From Chroococcidiopsis sp. TS-821 (GTDB taxonomy: Bacteria; Cyanobacteriota; Cyanobacteriia; Cyanobacteriales; Chroococcidiopsidaceae): a stretch of 64,000 bases of DNA. The stretch covers positions 1,178,001 through 1,242,000 of the forward strand of contig NZ_MVDI01000001.1 of assembly GCF_002939305.1 (NCBI RefSeq). The letters are read 5' to 3'. Below are positions 698-59,148 of the stretch, piece by piece. Every line of letters starts with the position of its first letter. The first letter of the stretch is position 1. The translations under genes were made by a program, and so were the position numbers. The notes beneath the pieces were generated by a model, which saw only the letters and a list, made by a program, of their open reading frames with translations, ran no database searches and was not told the origin of the DNA.

Positions 698-1567
698 TTA
701 TATTTGTTGTTGCATCCATCTGCGCGTACCAAAAGACTCGCAAGCAGCAGCAGCAACACGCGCAGCAGCAGCTAAGGCTTCAGCAAAGCTAGTTTGCAAA
801 ATGTAATGACAAAAAGCCCCGTGAAAGATATCACCAGCTCCTAGGGTGTCAACAGCTTTGATTTTGGGAACTGCGATAGTATTACACTGACCATTCGCTT
901 GATATTGAATGGGGTTTTCTCCTTGAGTGATGGCAATGTGAGGAATACCAATAGCGCTAAGATAGGCAAATACTTCAGTTGTGTTTTTGCAGCCTGGTGG
1001 ATGAAAATTTGCCGAACATACTGCATAATCGACAAAAGGCAAGACAGTTTCAAATCCAGGTTTCCAACTTCCACCATCAATCACAACAGGGATATGATTC
1101 GCTTTGGCTTGTTGGGCGATCGCGCATCCAATTACCATTTGATGTCCGTCAATTAAGACAATATCTACTCCTTGTAAAATGTCTTGAGGAATGCGATCGC
1201 GCGTGACCTGAGTTTTTACCGCGTTGATGGAAACAACTGCCCTTTCTCCTGTTGCTTCCGTGACAATAATCGAGGATACTGGCGGCGGTTCTACTTGTGT
1301 GGGATTTAAGTCTTCCACTGTAACTTGGTAAGTCTCTAAATCTGCCACAATTGAGTTGCAAAGTGGATGCGAACCTATAACACCTATTAGTTTTGCTTGA
1401 TGCCAATAACTAAACGCAACCGCAGCATTTGTTGCAGGACCACCAGCCGCCACAGTGTAATCAATTGCTACTATTTTTTGATTATTGCGCGGAACAGATT
1501 TTGCTAGATAGATGAAATCGAGCGTTATTAATCCAACAAACAGTCCTACTTGAGATTTCTGACGCAT
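698..1567 (-). CDS. PfkB-family carbohydrate/nucleoside kinase
   Basis: A cytoplasmic kinase of the PfkB (ribokinase) family, which transfers phosphate from ATP to a sugar or nucleoside hydroxyl. It is 289 residues, close to the usual family length of about 300. The N-terminal substrate region has the AAGGPATNAA glycine-rich motif. The C-terminal signature DTLGAGDIFHGAF starts near residue 240; Asp246 in GAGD is the expected catalytic base, next to the anion hole. The exact substrate cannot be read from sequence; cyanobacterial relatives are usually annotated just as sugar kinases. The gene stands alone, facing away from the upstream hypothetical, and is followed at its 5' side by an intergenic repeat. 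Confidence 0.85.
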   Translation of the reverse strand: MRQKSQVGLFVGLITLDFIYLAKSVPRNNQKIVAIDYTVAAGGPATNAAVAFSYWHQAKLIGVIGSHPLCNSIVADLETYQVTVEDLNPTQVEPPPVSSIIVTEATGERAVVSINAVKTQVTRDRIPQDILQGVDIVLIDGHQMVIGCAIAQQAKANHIPVVIDGGSWKPGFETVLPFVDYAVCSANFHPPGCKNTTEVFAYLSAIGIPHIAITQGENPIQYQANGQCNTIAVPKIKAVDTLGAGDIFHGAFCHYILQTSFAEALAAAARVAAAACESFGTRRWMQQQI

Positions 1568-1602
1568 TTTTAAACCACAAAGGCGCGAAGCGCGCGAAGA
1601 AA

Positions 1603-1640
1603 GTCAATAGCAACTAGCAACTAACCACTAACAACTAGCC
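1603..1640. repeat. Degenerate short repeat built on CTAGCAACTA / ACCACTAAC units
   Basis: Tandem-like units of about 7 bases (CAACTAG, CAACTAA, CCACTAA, CAACTAG) lie between the PfkB kinase and the SLH gene. Related degenerate strings occur in other gaps of this window, near 16454, 18992, 28828, 33199, 42237, 45190, 59245 and 60095. Short repeats of this type are frequent in filamentous and Chroococcidiopsis-like cyanobacteria. Confidence 0.5.
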
Positions 1641-1656
1641 ATAAGTATACTGTGGT

Positions 1657-2394
1657 TTAGTACGGGGACTGAGCTGTTAATGGAATTGGATTGTTCGCAA
1701 TATATTGCTGCGGAATCACTGATGCTTCATTAGGAGTTGCTAAAGCTTGACATAAAAATGCTGCTACTTCTGCGCGCGTTGCTTGCTTATTAGGATGTAA
1801 AAACCTCACATCGGGGTAATTAACAACAATACTTCTTTCTGTTGCTGCTGCTATTTTGCTTTGGGCATACCGAGGAATTTTATGAGCATCTGCAAAATTT
1901 GTTTTCAACGTAGAGGTGACGTCCCTACTAGGAACATAATTTAATCCACTCGCTAAAGCGACTAAAACTTGCGAACGAGTAATTCTTTGATTTGGTTTAA
2001 AAATTCTCCCTGGATAGCCTGATAAAAAGTTTCTTTGATACGCCTCTGCTACATGGTGATATGCCCAGTCATATACATGAACATCTCTAAATTCTATTCG
2101 CCTGCGTGTTCGAGGAATTTGCGGAAAAGCCTTACCGACTATTGCTGCAAATTCTGCACGATTAATATACATCATTGGGCGAAAGCTACCATCTGGATAA
2201 CCATTAATAATTCCTTGATTCGCTAATTTGACGATACAAGAGTTTGCCCAATTTCCTTGCAGATCGTAAAACAAGGAATATTGATTAGAATATTGAGCTA
2301 CAGCAGGTTTTTGTGGTATCCACGCGAATCCAGTCGTTATGACTCCCAAGCCGACTAACAAAGTAGGTAAGGAGCGATGTTTGAAACTAAACAT
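1657..2394 (-). CDS. S-layer homology (SLH) domain protein, exported
   Basis: A 245-residue exported protein. Residues 1-33 form a signal peptide (basic start, hydrophobic core, Ala-rich end before QYSNQYS). Three SLH repeats follow, at about residues 40-95, 100-150 and 160-220. Each carries the typical pattern of an aromatic start, a helix with NRAEFA/TRSQVLV/TRAEVAAF, and a turn such as GYPDGSFRP. SLH domains bind secondary cell-wall polymers or peptidoglycan; in cyanobacteria they anchor outer-membrane porins or small periplasmic proteins. There is no porin barrel here, so this is a stand-alone SLH protein, probably attached to peptidoglycan. It is monocistronic, with a long AT-rich region upstream. 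Confidence 0.85.
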   Translation of the reverse strand: MFSFKHRSLPTLLVGLGVITTGFAWIPQKPAVAQYSNQYSLFYDLQGNWANSCIVKLANQGIINGYPDGSFRPMMYINRAEFAAIVGKAFPQIPRTRRRIEFRDVHVYDWAYHHVAEAYQRNFLSGYPGRIFKPNQRITRSQVLVALASGLNYVPSRDVTSTLKTNFADAHKIPRYAQSKIAAATERSIVVNYPDVRFLHPNKQATRAEVAAFLCQALATPNEASVIPQQYIANNPIPLTAQSPY

Positions 2395-2830
2395 TAAATG
2401 CTTCTACCCTCTATTTATATATTTGTTGATTAATGAATGAATAACTGAGTTCCTGATATTTATGCAGCTCAATCTTCTTTATAAAAAATTTATATAAACT
2501 AATATTTAGGAGCTACTCTAGATACATTAGTATTTAGCAATATCAAATATTATCATACTCTGGTTACAGTGACTGACTTAAATTAAATTTGAATAAATTT
2601 TGGATTTACCTACCTAGCAGTTGAAGAAACGCAGTAATTATACCAAAATCTAGTGAATTAGAGTAAAAGTCGGATAATGACTGCGAGTTTATTACTCATG
2701 GTTGTCACAATTCTACCGAGATTTCACTGAAAAAAAATTAAAGTGCGACTAGCAATCAAAGATATCCGTAGATTCACTAGATACAAATCGATCTGATTAT
2801 TCTACAGGTACTATCCTTAACCTCAGAACA
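2395..2830. other. AT-rich intergenic region between divergent SLH gene and rsmI
   Basis: These 436 bases separate two divergently transcribed genes and must hold both promoters. The sequence is strongly AT rich, with several poly-A and TATA-like stretches. I see no ORF of coding character, no tRNA-like structure and no convincing inverted repeat. Confidence 0.5.
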
Positions 2831-3700
2831 ATGCAGGCAGCAGAAAACGGAAGACTTTATGTAGTAGGAACGCCGATTGGCAACTTAGAAGATATAACTT
2901 TTCGCGCCGTGCGAATTTTGCAATCGGTAGACTTCATTGCAGCAGAGGATACAAGGCATACAGGAAAGTTGCTACAACACTTTCAAATTAAGACACCACA
3001 GCTAAGTTATCACGAACACAATCGTAACAGTCGCATTCCTGAATTGATCCAGAAGTTAAGTGAAGGAAAAGCGATCGCCCTTGTCACAGATGCAGGAATG
3101 CCTGGAATTTCCGATCCTGGTTATGAACTTGTGCAAGCGTGTATTGCGGCAAATATTCCCGTAATCCCCATTCCTGGGGCAAGTGCAGTGATTACCGCGT
3201 TGTGCGCCGCCGGATTACCGACGGATCGATTTGTGTTTGAAGGGTTCTTACCCGTGAAAGGAAAAGAACGCCAGCAGCGCGGAGAATCTTTAAAAACTGA
3301 GTCGCGAACGATGGTTTTTTACGAATCACCCCATCGCCTGCGCCAAACTCTGCAAGACTTTGCGAACTTTTTTGGACAAGATCGGCAAATTGTTATAGCG
3401 CGCGAGTTAACTAAACTACACGAAGAATTTTGGCGCGGAAATATTGCGGAGGCGATCGCCCACTACAATCAACGCGAACCGCAAGGGGAATACACGCTAG
3501 TTGTTGCTGGAGTTTTAGCGAGTAAACCGCACTTGAGTGAAGTAGAAATTAAAGCTGAGTTACAAAAACTCATGGCACAGGGAATATCGCGATCGCAAGC
3601 TAGTCGTCAGTTAGCAAAGGAAGTCTCGCTTTCGCGCAGTCAAATTTACCAAATTGCTTTAGCGCTACCTAATTTATCTGCGGAGGATAGTAGCGATTAA
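2831..3700 (+). CDS. rsmI: 16S rRNA (cytidine(1402)-2'-O)-methyltransferase RsmI
   Basis: RsmI uses S-adenosylmethionine to methylate the 2'-hydroxyl of C1402 in 16S rRNA, in the decoding centre of the small subunit. The 289-residue length matches the family. The SAM-binding tetrapyrrole-methylase fold shows GTPIGNLEDIT at residues 13-23, the AAEDTRHTGKLL motif at about 37-48, and the DAGMPGISDPG segment near 97. The C-terminal tail (LSRSQIYQIALAL) is the usual small helical RsmI extension. The gene overlaps the 3' end of the convergent nuclease-like gene by four bases. Confidence 0.95.
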   Translation: MQAAENGRLYVVGTPIGNLEDITFRAVRILQSVDFIAAEDTRHTGKLLQHFQIKTPQLSYHEHNRNSRIPELIQKLSEGKAIALVTDAGMPGISDPGYELVQACIAANIPVIPIPGASAVITALCAAGLPTDRFVFEGFLPVKGKERQQRGESLKTESRTMVFYESPHRLRQTLQDFANFFGQDRQIVIARELTKLHEEFWRGNIAEAIAHYNQREPQGEYTLVVAGVLASKPHLSEVEIKAELQKLMAQGISRSQASRQLAKEVSLSRSQIYQIALALPNLSAEDSSD

Positions 3701-4548
3701 GATTTAGTTTTAACGCCAGAAAATTCGCACACTGTATTAAATGGGCAATAACGACAGTGCGAACCAGGGTTAGGCGGAAAAATTTTGCTGAAATGGTGGG
3801 GGTTTTGTTGATAGTGGTGCATATCTTGCTGATGCTTGATCGCCACTTGTGCTAATTGATCTTCTACAGCGTCGAGTTGAGTGGAAGTTACACTAATTAG
3901 CTCAGAGTTTTTACACCGTTCTAAGTTGTAGAATGAAGCAACGGCTTGATAATCAGGATATAAATAGCGCGCCGCAAGTAAATAAACAAGCGCCTGACGC
4001 TCGTCAAAAGCCGATCTACCCGTCTTAAAGTCAAGAATGTGCAAGATTTTATCAGCTTCGACGAACACGCAATCCATCGTCGCGTACAGCCGAAATTGAT
4101 AATTTTTTTGATGAATCACGATTGGTTGCGGAAATCCTTCATCGCCACTGGTAAGTTGAATGATGTGTTTTCCGAGTAAAACTGGACGATGATGGTAGTT
4201 TTTGAGAATTTGCATGACGCGCTGCTGAATCTCAACACTTGATTTACTTAGTTTGAGTAGTTGAGCCACTTGTTCAACACCATCAGGCTGAGTTAACCAT
4301 TGACGGTGATGATGAAATTCGTAAACGCCCTTTTGGGCAAGTAAACCGATGCGTTGCGGTGGGCTAACTTTAGCTAGTAATGCTTTGATTATCGGTTCTT
4401 TTTGCCGCGCTTTGATAAAGCCTCGTTTCATCTGACAATGCCATCTTTCTTGCCCGATAGCTGGGGCAAATAAAGACCAAAGGTGGTAGCTGGCAAAGGG
4501 TCGCCCAGAGTTTAGCATTGTCTGGCGGTTCAGTAAGGGAAGCAACAA
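3697..4548 (-). CDS. PD-(D/E)XK nuclease-superfamily protein with Cas4-like cysteines
   Basis: A 283-residue protein of the RecB/Cas4-like nuclease fold. The core shows DCVFVEAD, then ILDFKTGRS, in which Asp and Lys match the (D/E)-x-K active site. QALVYLLAARYLYP follows and matches motif QxxxY. Cys38 near the N-terminus and Cys265, Cys268 and Cys274 near the C-terminus (CRYCPFNTVC) match the spacing of the 4Fe-4S cluster in Cas4 and AddB nucleases. That implies an iron-sulfur DNA nuclease, but the substrate is unknown. No cas genes are nearby, so it is not a CRISPR adaptation protein by context. The frame opens with TTG at 4548; an ATG at 4518 is an alternative start. Confidence 0.75.
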   Translation of the reverse strand: MLLPLLNRQTMLNSGRPFASYHLWSLFAPAIGQERWHCQMKRGFIKARQKEPIIKALLAKVSPPQRIGLLAQKGVYEFHHHRQWLTQPDGVEQVAQLLKLSKSSVEIQQRVMQILKNYHHRPVLLGKHIIQLTSGDEGFPQPIVIHQKNYQFRLYATMDCVFVEADKILHILDFKTGRSAFDERQALVYLLAARYLYPDYQAVASFYNLERCKNSELISVTSTQLDAVEDQLAQVAIKHQQDMHHYQQNPHHFSKIFPPNPGSHCRYCPFNTVCEFSGVKTKS

Positions 4549-54643: not shown

Positions 54644-54703
54644 AGGCTTTGTAGAAGGCAGTAATAATTGACAAGTCGATCGCGCGATCGCGATTTTAAA
54701 CTT

Positions 54704-55178
54704 TTAAACTAAATCATCTAAACGTAAGCCTGTACCATAAAGTAACTTGATTAAAAAAAGTTGATGTAAGCCAGACAATTGTTTGATAATCGCAAAAACT
54801 TAATCTTTTTCCAGGACAGTTGGTAAATTTAGAATATTTTGTCCTAACTGCGTCTACTTTTAAATCTAAATCTTCTTTTAATACTTCTTGATAGAGAAAT
54901 AAAGTTGCGTTAAAAAATTGATTTTGAGGAGGTGCAGCAACTTTTTTTTCAACTGCTAAATGTGTGAGAAAAGCCTCTATTTCAGCACTTTCCCTATCTT
55001 TAGAATGGCGCTTATCATGAAAAAATATATAGCGTTGAATCCAACCAACATAGCTTTTCTCTATTTTGCATGAATAACGTTTCAGCCGAATAGCATTTTG
55101 CACCTGTGCCATCAGCTTTTTGGGGCGTTGTTCTATAAATAAAAAATATTTAGAAAAATTCCATCTAATACCCTTCAT
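54704..55178 (-). pseudogene. Decayed integron-type tyrosine recombinase (integrase)
   Basis: The N-terminal part (residues about 20-115) reads as an integron/phage integrase SAM-like domain: QVQNAIRLKRYSCKIEKSYV, IEAFLTHLAVEKKVA and FLYQEVLKEDLDLKVDAVR. After about residue 118 the frame breaks. The second frame reads LPTVLEKD, a stop at 54800-54802 where family members have Glu, then VFAIIKQLSGLHQLF and LLYGTGLRLDDLV. GLR contains the first catalytic arginine. The C-terminal catalytic half that should follow is absent. Frameshift, nonsense and deletion together mark it as a dead gene. Confidence 0.85.
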
Positions 55179-55187
55179 ATAGTGGAA

Positions 55188-55811
55188 TTAGATAGCAGAA
55201 TTGTCTGATAACCCTTGAAGTAGCGTTTGCGATGAGAATTTCAAGAAAGTTTCAAGTTCTTCCTGCGATCTGACCTGTAATTTATTATCCAGAATCAACA
55301 TTGATTGACCATGTACCATTGACCAAGCGACTCGTGCCATATTAACTGGATCGACCGCACGAAAGATTCCAGCAGCTTGACCTTCTTGAATCGTATTCAC
55401 TAGCACCATGAACGATTGCTGAGCTGCTTCTGCAAGAGCGGAATACTTACTGAGATTGCAGTGATAGTCTCCAAACATCAAACGATAGTGGGACGGATGG
55501 GCTAGTGCAAACTTAACGTAGGCAATCCCGATCGCTTCTAAGCGTTGAGAGGAGTCTAGTGGTAGGTTTCGTTGTGCCTTTTTCATCGTGTCTCTTAAGG
55601 ACTGAAACCCTTGTGCTGCGACTGCTGCCAATAGCGCATCTTTATCTTCAAAATGACGATAAGGGGCATTGTGCGAAACACCAACCCGCTTCGCAACCTG
55701 ACGCAGAGACAGCTCGTTAATCCCTTCCTCTTTTAGGAGTTCGAGCGCTGCGTCAATTAAGCTTTGCCGTAGGTTGCCGTGGTGGTAGGAGTTCTTTACT
55801 GCTACTGTCAT
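55188..55811 (-). CDS. TetR/AcrR-family transcriptional regulator
   Basis: A 207-residue repressor-type regulator. The N-terminal HTH (residues about 10-60) includes AALELLKEEGINELSLRQVA and VSHNAPYRHFEDKDALLAAV. The all-helical C-terminal ligand domain covers about 75-200. I use the ATG at 55811; the TTG at 55841 would add ten residues and overlap the operator region. It faces away from the FAD oxidoreductase, with 121 bases between their start codons, so that gene is its likely target. Confidence 0.92.
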   Translation of the reverse strand: MTVAVKNSYHHGNLRQSLIDAALELLKEEGINELSLRQVAKRVGVSHNAPYRHFEDKDALLAAVAAQGFQSLRDTMKKAQRNLPLDSSQRLEAIGIAYVKFALAHPSHYRLMFGDYHCNLSKYSALAEAAQQSFMVLVNTIQEGQAAGIFRAVDPVNMARVAWSMVHGQSMLILDNKLQVRSQEELETFLKFSSQTLLQGLSDNSAI

Positions 55812-55841
55812 GAAGTCGTTTGTCCAGGAAGAATTAACCAA

Positions 55842-55904
55842 ATTTTAATTCCGTATGTTGACAATGTCAACATCCCATCTTATATTCAAGTTGTCGGTGA
55901 CAAC
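55842..55904. promoter_or_regulatory. Overlapping divergent promoters with two palindromic operators (TetR)
   Basis: Operator 1 is a perfect repeat, ATGTTGAC-AAT-GTCAACAT (55855-55873). It contains TTGACA on both strands. On the plus strand TTGACA (55858-55863) is 17 bases from TATATT (55881-55886). On the minus strand TTGACA (55865-55870) is 17 bases from TAAAAT (55842-55847). Operator 2, GTTGTC-GGT-GACAAC (55890-55904), lies 33 bp centre to centre, about three helical turns. Both fit GTTGwC-N3-GwCAAC. Confidence 0.8.
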
Positions 55905-55932
55905 ATTTAGATCTTTTGGTCTAGGAGGAATT

Positions 55933-57522
55933 ATGGTCACTGCAACTCAGCAGCAAAGATTTGACGTAATTGTGATTGGTTCCGGAATTGGTGGATTAAC
56001 TGTTGCTGCACTGCTATCCAAACTGTATCGGAAAAGGGTTTTAGTTCTAGAACAGCATTTTACTGCGGGCGGATTTACCCATACCTTTGAGCGCAAGGGG
56101 AAATTTTCTTGGGATGTAGGACTGCACTATGTCGGAGACATGGGGGAAGGCAGTACAGGAAAAGCTGTGTTTAACTATCTCACTAACAGCAATTTGCAAT
56201 GGCATAAAATGCCCGACCCGTTTGAGAAATTCGTCTATCCAGATTTCACTTTTGAGGTGTATTCTGACCCCGATCGCTATCAAGCTGATTTGGTTCAACG
56301 CTTTCCTCAGGAACAGTTCGCAATCCAGCGGTATTTCAAAGACATTCAAACGGCAGCGTTTTGGTTCGGAATGCATTCCATGCTGGAGCTATTTCCGAGA
56401 TGGTTACATCCATTGCTCAGACCAGCGATCCGGTCTTTCGGTGCGATCGCAAGACAAACCACTCAGCAATATTTGGAGCAACACTTCCAAAATGTCCATC
56501 TCAGAGCGTTGCTGGCTTCTCAGTGGGGAGATTACGGCTTACCGCCATCTCGGAGTTGCTTTGGCATTCACAGCGTGATTGTCAGCCATTATTTAAAGGG
56601 AGGTTGGTATCCCGTGGGTGGAGCCAAGGCGATCGCGCAATCCATCATTCCAGTGATTGAACGCTCAGGTGGTACTGTTCTCACCCAACGCCGCGTCACA
56701 GAAATCTTACTAGACTCTGGAGCAGCAGTGGGTGTAAAAGCGCAACATACGGCAAAGCCACAGGCAGATTTAGAAACCTACTATGCATCGATTGTCGTGT
56801 CTGATACCGGCGCATTTAATACCTATTTGAAACTGATTCCCTCTAACTATCCGCTAGTCGAGCGTCAGGCAATTCAGACGTTTCCGAAAGGCAGCAGTAT
56901 GGTGACAGTATACCTGGGATTAAACGAAAGTCCCCAGCGCCTGGGTTTTCAGGGCGAAAACCACTGGATTTATACGACTTATGACCATGAGACGATTGCT
57001 CAAAATTCGCTCATTTCTTCTAATTATTTACCCAAGTTCTGCTATCTCTTATTTCCATCACTAAAAGATCCCTTGGCTCGCGAACATACCGCAGAAATCA
57101 TCGCGCATGTTGACTACGATTTCTTCTCACAGTGGCGGGAGCAACCTTGGCGGCGGCGAGGGAGTGAATATACTGAACTGAAAGCTCAAATTACCCAATC
57201 CCTGATTCAGTTAGTAGAAAGCCACTATCCTGGCTTCCAGAATTTGATCGAGTATGCAGAACTCTCAACTCCACTGACAGTAGAGCATTTTGATGCCAGC
57301 GATCGTGGTGCTATCTATGGCATTCCTTGCATTCCCGAACGACTCGATCAATCTTGGATCGGGGTTAGAACACCGATTAAAAATCTCTACCTGACTGGAG
57401 CAGACACATTTTCACCTGGCATCATGGGCGCAATGATGGGTGGCGTGAAAACAGCAGGTATTTTGAATGGAGCATTTGGTTTCTTCAAGATTATGGCAAG
57501 GATTATGCGAGAGTCGGCTTGA
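55933..57522 (+). CDS. FAD-dependent oxidoreductase, retinol saturase/carotenoid isomerase-like
   Basis: A 529-residue flavoprotein of the phytoene desaturase superfamily. The N-terminal FAD-binding motif is VIVIGSGIGGLTVAALLSK (residues about 12-30), followed by GLHYVGDM and FAVQR-type segments. The C-terminal NLYLTGADTFSPGIMGAMMG is the second FAD contact. The closest functional relatives are retinol saturase and carotenoid cis-trans isomerases, so a polyene substrate is likely but unproven. The ATG at 55933 has a full AGGAGG site (55923-55928). It is divergent from the TetR gene. Confidence 0.85.
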   Translation: MVTATQQQRFDVIVIGSGIGGLTVAALLSKLYRKRVLVLEQHFTAGGFTHTFERKGKFSWDVGLHYVGDMGEGSTGKAVFNYLTNSNLQWHKMPDPFEKFVYPDFTFEVYSDPDRYQADLVQRFPQEQFAIQRYFKDIQTAAFWFGMHSMLELFPRWLHPLLRPAIRSFGAIARQTTQQYLEQHFQNVHLRALLASQWGDYGLPPSRSCFGIHSVIVSHYLKGGWYPVGGAKAIAQSIIPVIERSGGTVLTQRRVTEILLDSGAAVGVKAQHTAKPQADLETYYASIVVSDTGAFNTYLKLIPSNYPLVERQAIQTFPKGSSMVTVYLGLNESPQRLGFQGENHWIYTTYDHETIAQNSLISSNYLPKFCYLLFPSLKDPLAREHTAEIIAHVDYDFFSQWREQPWRRRGSEYTELKAQITQSLIQLVESHYPGFQNLIEYAELSTPLTVEHFDASDRGAIYGIPCIPERLDQSWIGVRTPIKNLYLTGADTFSPGIMGAMMGGVKTAGILNGAFGFFKIMARIMRESA

Positions 57523-57657
57523 CGTAGCCGCTATTAACAAAACTATAGAGCTTGCTGCCTAGCTAAAAGTAATAGCAGGCTAGTAACTCGGTTGGAGCAG
57601 ACAATTGCAAGTCTTTTCGTTTTGCTGTAGTCGATCTGCTACCGCTCAACCGGAACG

Positions 57658-59148
57658 TTATTGTGCGTTTTCACGAGGATCTCGCGAAACTTGTGGAGCT
57701 TCGCGATCTTCCAAGAAGGTTTGTACTTTACCCTCAGGTGTCAAAACGACTCGAATTCTAGCTACTTGACCATCAGCAATGGGAGATACAAAAGGCTCGC
57801 CAATCAGAGGCATTCCAGTGCGGTCAATTTGGTCTCTAGCAGCTTGATTTAGCGGTTCAATACGTTGAATTGTGCCATCAACATCCAACAGCAAACTATA
57901 CTCCAAGGTTTGCTTAACAGCTTCTGTTGGTTCCCAGCGGCGCTGAAAGAATTGTCGAGCTTCGGCTACCTGACTAATATTATCTAACGATGTAGGTTGA
58001 CTTGGGGCAGGAGGAGGTTGGTTTGGCGATCGCACTGCCGCAGTTGTGTTATTCGCCGCCTGTTGCTGTGGTGCTGCTGGTGCAGTTCGCTGCGTTTGAG
58101 ATATTGCTGCTTGCGAACCAGGATTAGGCGCGTTGAGTTGCGCTAAAGGACTCGGTATGGCGATTGTAGGTGCGGAATCCCCTGCACCTGGTTGCTGGGG
58201 CGTCGTATTTCCTGCCCTAGCTGTAGCGGTTTGATTCGGCGACCCTGGAATGGTGGTTGTTTGTGGCGCTGTTGTCCCGCCTGGAAGAGTAGGAGACGGT
58301 GCTGCTGCGGTTGATTCTGTGGGAGGGCTAGCGTTTGGTACTGGAATTGTAGGTAGTGGGGCATTAGGAACAGGGACAGGAGAACCCACAGGCGGTGGAG
58401 GTGGTAATGTATCTATTGATGATAAAGGTGGTAAAGGTGAAGGCTGCGTCGCAAGCTGCTGTGGATCTTCCGTGATTTGATTACTGGTTGCCGTTTGTTG
58501 AACAGGGCGGTTCAGTTGTTGTAAGACAGCAAAGATACCTACAGCTAGTGTTAATCCGGCGGCAATCGTTGCCCAAGCGGGAGGAGTCGTACTTACTCGA
58601 CGTTGCTTGAGGCTGGGTAGGGCAACAATATCAGCTTCAAATTGATCTAAAGCCGTTGCCAAATCAAACAGTTGCAGTACGCTCAACTGCACGATAGGTC
58701 CGGTTGTGGGAGTTGCTAGCGATCCTAAATAGAGTGTATGTGATAGTCCTGTACCGGGTTTAAGAAAGATTTGTCGCGCCTGCGCCGGAGGTGAATCAGA
58801 GGAATTGGCAGGCGAAATCACAATTTGGGAGTTTGCAACCGCAGTCGTTGAATCACTCGAAGTCGTTTGCGACGCTAACTGTGCGGTAAATTGGGCTGGC
58901 GATTGATTTAATAACTCTTGCACATACACTGTGACGGCTTGGTGTAAGGCTTCGAGTTGTTCGCGATCGCCTGTAACCTGAATTCGTCGATCCGGCGATC
59001 GCGGATCGTCAAAATGCAAATGAAAGCGTAACTGCGTGGCTACTGTCCGCCCAGCCCAACGCGACAGTGGCGATCGCGGAGCCACAATTTCCAACGTACA
59101 AGTGGGCGGCGTATACCTACGGAGAACCTGTAAATTTGACAAAGTCAT
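57658..59148 (-). CDS. DUF4335-family protein with membrane segment and Pro/Gln/Thr linker
   Basis: A 496-residue cyanobacterial protein. The first 180 residues are a conserved domain (TCTLEIVAPRSPLSRWAGRT, LHFDDPRSPDRRIQVTGDRE). A single hydrophobic helix at about 193-211 (ATIAAGLTLAVGIFAVL) follows, then a Pro/Gln/Thr/Ser-rich region to about 385. The last 100 residues again look folded (YSLLLDVDGTIQRIEPL). That arrangement fits an inner-membrane protein with an external disordered linker. The family has no assigned function. A DUF3038 gene lies 158 bases upstream on the same strand. Confidence 0.8.
   Translation of the reverse strand: MTLSNLQVLRRYTPPTCTLEIVAPRSPLSRWAGRTVATQLRFHLHFDDPRSPDRRIQVTGDREQLEALHQAVTVYVQELLNQSPAQFTAQLASQTTSSDSTTAVANSQIVISPANSSDSPPAQARQIFLKPGTGLSHTLYLGSLATPTTGPIVQLSVLQLFDLATALDQFEADIVALPSLKQRRVSTTPPAWATIAAGLTLAVGIFAVLQQLNRPVQQTATSNQITEDPQQLATQPSPLPPLSSIDTLPPPPPVGSPVPVPNAPLPTIPVPNASPPTESTAAAPSPTLPGGTTAPQTTTIPGSPNQTATARAGNTTPQQPGAGDSAPTIAIPSPLAQLNAPNPGSQAAISQTQRTAPAAPQQQAANNTTAAVRSPNQPPPAPSQPTSLDNISQVAEARQFFQRRWEPTEAVKQTLEYSLLLDVDGTIQRIEPLNQAARDQIDRTGMPLIGEPFVSPIADGQVARIRVVLTPEGKVQTFLEDREAPQVSRDPRENAQ

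Follow-up and report, generated by a model that had tools for sequence, protein, structure and literature searches.

Divergent TetR regulators and their neighbors

Between the divergent tetR and tetA genes lie two 15-bp palindromic operators, and this is the closest described arrangement to the one reported here (PMC3511530, in the part considered). According to the same part of that source, TetR regulators located less than 200 bp from a divergent neighbor most likely regulate that neighbor, and it is common to find an enzyme regulated by a divergent TetR. A divergent TetR is not always the repressor of its neighbor, as three different outcomes are described there among those tested.

We analyzed a 64,000-nucleotide stretch of Chroococcidiopsis sp. 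TS-821 (hereafter, the window), to which all coordinates refer. Based on its gene content and GCGATCGC repeats, we take it to be cyanobacterial DNA. A TetR-family regulator gene (55191-55811, minus strand) and a gene for an FAD-dependent oxidoreductase (55933-57522, plus strand) are divergently encoded there across a gap of 121 bp with a G+C content of 36%. The locus resembles tetR/tetA in its divergent regulator and target, short gap, two 15-bp palindromic operators and TetR-family regulator, and the two palindromes overlap both promoters, which here are predicted only. It differs in that the target is an FAD oxidoreductase and not an efflux pump. The layout itself is thus a known one, and the locus is a tidy but ordinary example among the many switches of this type.

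The Streptomyces TetR/enzyme pairs (PMC3511530, in the part considered) likewise have short gaps, palindromic operators and, commonly, divergent oxidoreductase targets. In the part of their Table 2 that was covered, the putative operators differ in sequence from those of the window, as does the PmeR operator in the part of PMC4538802 considered. Unlike in the covered part of the Streptomyces study, pairs with one enzyme family are compared here across phyla. A literature search for the same operator sequence or the same TetR/enzyme pair found none, which is not proof that they are unpublished.

The predicted control region between the two genes

Two predicted operators were identified in the gap, with centers 33 bp apart. 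O1 (ATGTTGACAATGTCAACAT, 55855-55873) is, as read from the bases, a perfect 19-bp palindrome of the form 8+3+8, and O2 (GTTGTCGGTGACAAC, 55890-55904, within the 19-mer 55888-55906) is a perfect 6+3+6 palindrome. They score 24.1 and 15.9 bits, respectively, on a matrix built without the window. The preliminary description had reported one palindrome with both TTGACA boxes and a second one with the same half-site pattern 33 bp away, and O1 and O2 reproduce these to the base. When the 121-bp gap was shuffled 20,000 times at the mononucleotide level, at least two perfect 6-3-6 palindromes occurred in 0.08% of the shuffles.

Both predicted -35 boxes (TTGACA) lie inside O1, that of the oxidoreductase promoter at 55858-55863 on the plus strand and that of the regulator promoter at 55865-55870 on the minus strand. 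The corresponding predicted -10 boxes are TATATT (55881-55886, plus strand) and TAAAAT (55842-55847, minus strand), each matching the consensus at 5/6 positions after a spacer of exactly 17 bp, in agreement with the near-consensus boxes and 17-base spacers described before. The two copies of TTGACA are not independent facts, because the half-site GTTGACA holds TTGACA on both strands of the palindrome; the independent part of the promoter evidence is the two -10 boxes. With O1 fixed and the flanks shuffled, both -10 boxes at 5/6 appeared at a spacer of exactly 17 bp in 0.03% of the shuffles, and at spacers of 16-18 bp in 0.17% (0.155% with 40-bp flanks).

From the -10 boxes, transcription is predicted to start near 55893 (plus strand) for the enzyme and near 55835 (minus strand) for the regulator, and the former position falls within O2. 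The ATG at 55811 was taken as the start of the regulator because a TTG at 55841 would be upstream of its predicted transcript start. On the enzyme side, a Shine-Dalgarno-like AGGAGG (55923-55928, plus strand) was read directly 4 bases 5' of the ATG at 55933.

The exact pattern GTTGWC-N3-GWCAAC, for which a genome search had been suggested earlier, has two sites in the 5,234,181 bases (72 contigs) covered of the genome, and these are O1 and O2. A wider regulon in this genome was considered and rejected: sites with at most one mismatch numbered 57 (exact ones included) against 136 for a reversed-pattern control, and 19-mers with at most two mismatches numbered 11 against 12. As these counts are not above the controls, no wider regulon is visible in the source genome.

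The regulator and its operator family

The regulator (207 aa, ATG start, stop codon at 55188-55190) passes the Pfam cut-offs for the TetR_N domain (PF00440, 53.3 bits, cut-off 24) and for the C-terminal ligand domain TetR_C_33 (PF13305, 61.1 bits, cut-off 26.8). Among proteins of solved structure, its sequence is best matched by 3on2 (E 4.5e-30, regulator residues 6-188), named by its depositors as a probable transcriptional regulator and presumably from Rhodococcus. In the same phylum, 16 of 386 genomes contain relatives of the regulator, and 35 further loci were found in other genomes, the last few of which are partial matches only. No relative was found among viral contigs.

A palindrome close to ATGTNNACANTGTNNACAT was detected upstream of the TetR gene in 42 of 50 loci (p ≤0.01, 200 shuffles each), a circular figure, since these loci also served to train the matrix. 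These are the distinct TetR loci, without L034 (incomplete), L052-L056 (partial matches), L073 and duplicates. We therefore relied on a held-out matrix built from 43 other TetR loci, which exclude the window and L061-L067; nine of them (L013-L021) come from the window's phylum, and the spirochaete pairs described below are also among them. With this matrix, two sites scoring at least 12 were found in the 64-kb window, namely O1 and O2. Among the seven held-out loci, six had two sites of at least 10 and L067 had one. The 10 other TetR loci of the source genome (3117-3141 bp each) all stayed below 12, with a best score of 11.3. The 43-locus matrix, the matrix of the spacing survey and the 28-locus matrix used below were all seeded with two sites noticed by eye.

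O2 scored 17.6 on the 50-locus matrix, and the best of 2000 shuffles of the 275-bp upstream region scored higher (20.4), so the case for O2 rests on its position and company more than on its score. On the sequence evidence, the held-out matrix ties the putative operators O1 and O2 to the TetR subfamily of the adjacent regulator.

The oxidoreductase

The 529-aa enzyme matches amine-oxidase-type FAD families in Pfam and belongs to the CrtI/CRTISO superfamily. It matches the CRTISO model TIGR02730 at 136.3 bits (E 1.4e-39), far under the cut-off of 586.9, and the CrtD model at 125.6 bits, well below the cut-off. Among the 10 proteins of the source genome that match the CRTISO model, none of which exceeds the cut-off, this enzyme ranks fourth. 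It aligned to a fragment of human RETSAT with 31% identity over 490 positions (236 bits), and to the genome's best CRTISO-model match with 122 bits. We call it retinol-saturase-like, a provisional designation for which the yardstick is this RETSAT fragment.

Few genomes of the window's phylum contain the enzyme (4 of 386 at E 1e-60), and of these copies only that of the window has an adjacent TetR. The closest relative of the enzyme, at L058 (72% identity), lacks both a TetR and an operator, which indicates that the enzyme is not dependent on TetR control. Viral carriage was considered and dropped, with no relative among viral contigs. At E 1e-40, copies were found in 6 of 72,556 plasmid records, all with less than 60% identity.

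At L059, in a genome of the same family (G005), an unpaired retinol-saturase-like gene (1492-3090) overlaps the start of the next gene (3084-3809). The latter encodes an iron-sulfur protein of the NADH-dehydrogenase G / hydrogenase kind (Fer2_4, NADH-G_4Fe-4S_3), which we take to be of the HoxU kind.

TetR/enzyme pairs in other bacteria

In Spirochaetota, the phylum of two Leptospiraceae genomes, the enzyme was present in 42 of 247 genomes at E 1e-100 or better. A divergent TetR of the same subfamily was found in 7 of the 30 enzyme loci fetched from this phylum (L071, L072, L079 and L094-L097), or in 5 of 28 without L071 and L072, which had first been found via the regulator search. The search covered a 1.5-kb flank, and at one of the 30 loci (L106), which starts at the edge of a contig, a TetR could not have been seen. 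Among three further loci fetched later, one (L145) had the pair. A weaker TetR relative is co-directional with the enzyme at the Myxococcales locus L073, where no operator was seen.

Sites scoring at least 8, a threshold of our choice, were found before the enzyme gene in 7/7 pairs and in 3/31 unpaired copies (hypergeometric 9.5e-6, kinship ignored). This comparison covered 38 enzyme loci from several phyla, without L106 (contig edge) and duplicates, and its matrix was built from 28 loci without enzyme pairs, L061-L067 or the window, including L016 and L020. Inside the enzyme genes, such sites occurred 5 times in 60,190 bp. Several of the spirochaete pairs are closely related, thus the seven are not seven independent cases.

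The three unpaired copies with an operator are L075 (G387), L076 (G386) and L081 (G572), and each of these genomes also has a pair. L075 and L076 each have two sites 20 bp apart, compared to 21 bp in the pairs of the same genomes. Judged from the sites, this looks like a small regulon controlled in trans. The second enzyme copy of G481 lies outside the fetched loci.

The preliminary description had read the palindromes as operators bound by the neighboring TetR, with the divergent gene as its target. This part of the interpretation stands, with the divergent gene as the likely target, based on the held-out matrix and the 7/7 pairs; the polyene-like ligand proposed with it is a tentative candidate.

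Promoter layout and operator spacing in related loci

The nearest sampled regulators, L061, L062, L063 and L064, share 58, 50, 44 and 46% identity with that of the window, respectively. All four loci have two sites 33-34 bp apart, matching the window. Their TetR-proximal site carries -35-like hexamers on both strands (4-6/6 matches), and -10 boxes of 4/6 or 5/6 are found at 16-18 bp in both directions, that on the regulator side of L061 overlapping the start codon. By flank shuffle, -10 boxes of at least 4/6 on both sides arose in 6.4, 7.3, 10.8 and 7.1% of cases for L061-L064, respectively. A conserved shared -35 layout in these loci is thus inseparable from chance locus by locus, and it is not clear in the spirochaete pairs. 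Relatives may or may not have retained the shared -35 boxes.

The genes adjoining these regulators differ. The divergent neighbor is monooxygenase-like at L062, a DUF3291 gene at L063 and a SnoaL gene at L064; at L061, a second TetR gene comes next, encoded on the same strand, and past it lies a transport gene. At L065 and L066, the regulator faces a ydhR-type monooxygenase, and the sites are 27 bp apart. These differences at L061-L066 indicate that the two-operator region has been kept while the adjoining gene changes.

Across loci, the operators are spaced by 17, 20, 21, 27, 28, 31-34, 43-45 or 64 bp; the survey left out the 8 of 50 loci without a good site. The spacings cluster near 21, 33 and 43 bp (approximately two, three and four helical turns), with the 27-28 bp group off these values and many near-copies among the loci. 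A whole number of helical turns does not account for spacings of 17 or 27-28 bp. Helical phasing was evaluated (R = 0.53 at 10.5 bp, 33 two-site loci), and we make no claim of it given the many near-copies (Myxococcales, 43 bp).

Phylogeny and genomic context of the pair

Trees were built from chosen rows (26 for the enzyme, 27 for TetR). In the TetR tree, which has several long branches, the seven spirochaete pair regulators cluster together (92/89), and the window regulator joins L061 (99/97) in a part of the tree occupied by regulators of other genes; given the supported branches, the pairing label must change twice. The window enzyme joins the unpaired L058 (98/97) in the enzyme tree, where supported branches force at least four such changes. 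From these placements, the pairing here and that in Spirochaetota either had separate origins or persisted through losses or exchanges of partners. By either history, the recurrent pairing argues for a functional link.

The pair lies on an insert of 3 kb (~54647-57670) that is absent from both other genomes of the genus examined, based on alignment to both. In one of the genomes compared (G648), 55 bp separate the ferredoxin gene from the next gene. This slot is empty in the two congeners and holds the TetR/oxidoreductase pair in the window (L141-L143 compared). At L143, from the same family, the same slot contains genes for an intact tyrosine integrase (PF13495 and PF00589) and for a protein of 732 aa that carries a DNA methylase domain (PF01555). 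This slot appears to be a hot spot for insertions.

The insert also contains a truncated integrase relative (54714-55178, minus strand) with only the N-terminal SAM-like domain PF13495. It shares 57% identity with the intact L143 integrase over 89 residues, and its best NCBIfam match is an integron integrase, below the cut-off.

A probable self-repressed switch and alternative explanations

Taken together, we consider it likely that the gap is the control region of a divergent, self-repressed switch in the style of tetR/tetA, with binding, repression and induction all predicted. A TetR dimer would bind O1 and O2. On O1 it would cover both -35 boxes and shut off the regulator gene and the oxidoreductase together, and the geometry by which a single dimer could do so, as judged from the bases, is sound. 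On O2, 33 bp away, a dimer would also cover the predicted transcript start of the oxidoreductase, so the two genes need not be equally repressed, and the enzyme is expected to be more tightly repressed than the regulator. By analogy with the regulator family, a small and probably hydrophobic compound, likely one that the enzyme uses as a substrate, would take the repressor off the DNA and thereby release both genes.

The ligand is probably a hydrophobic enzyme substrate. A polyene or retinoid-like compound is a reasonable candidate from the enzyme class only (CrtI/CRTISO, and the 31% identity to the human RETSAT fragment). Against deducing the ligand from the enzyme class, TetR relatives of the same order adjoin monooxygenase-like, DUF3291, SnoaL and ydhR enzymes.

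The main alternative keeps O1 and O2 as operators and treats the shared -35 boxes as incidental, with repression mainly at O2 or at promoters located elsewhere and the double TTGACA arising from the operator consensus. Operators of this family with the half-site GTTGACA are indeed TTGACA-like on both strands, the both-sided matches of L061-L064 are each at the 6-11% chance level, and the spirochaete pairs are unclear. However, the -10 boxes of the window, both 5/6 at exactly 17 bp, have a frequency in flank shuffles (0.03%) that makes incidental boxes rather unlikely in our assessment. Binding of the palindromes by another regulator, with the TetR acting elsewhere, is very improbable, as the same kind of motif is found upstream of TetR relatives in distant phyla and the exact motif nowhere else in the 5.23 Mb covered of the genome. 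Short palindromes are common, with 22 perfect 6-3-6 ones in the 64-kb window, and the inverted repeats could in principle be there by chance without a regulatory role; the held-out matrix score, the unique occurrence in the part of the genome covered and the 7/7 spirochaete pairs make this scarcely credible.

Beyond the self-repressed switch at this locus, we tentatively raise a broader scenario, which we regard as possible and on balance doubtful. The control region may be an exchangeable cassette of a TetR_C_33 regulator and two operators, the nearer of which would supply both -35 boxes, with a spacing of 33-34 bp in five related loci of one order and the adjoining gene swapped (flavin enzyme, monooxygenase-like, DUF3291 or SnoaL). 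In the same scenario, the TetR subfamily and retinol-saturase-like enzymes would have come together on at least two occasions, one in Spirochaetota and one here, through sensing of the enzyme substrate by the regulator, and unlinked enzyme copies would also be controlled in some spirochaetes.

Implications

The occurrence of related repressor-enzyme pairs in distant bacteria raises the interest of this switch. The conserved operator provides a motif for finding unlinked regulon members. The recurrent link between a retinol-saturase-like enzyme and one TetR subfamily offers a direct handle on the substrate of the enzyme, as a compound that lifts the repressor from O1 and O2 should name its substrate class.
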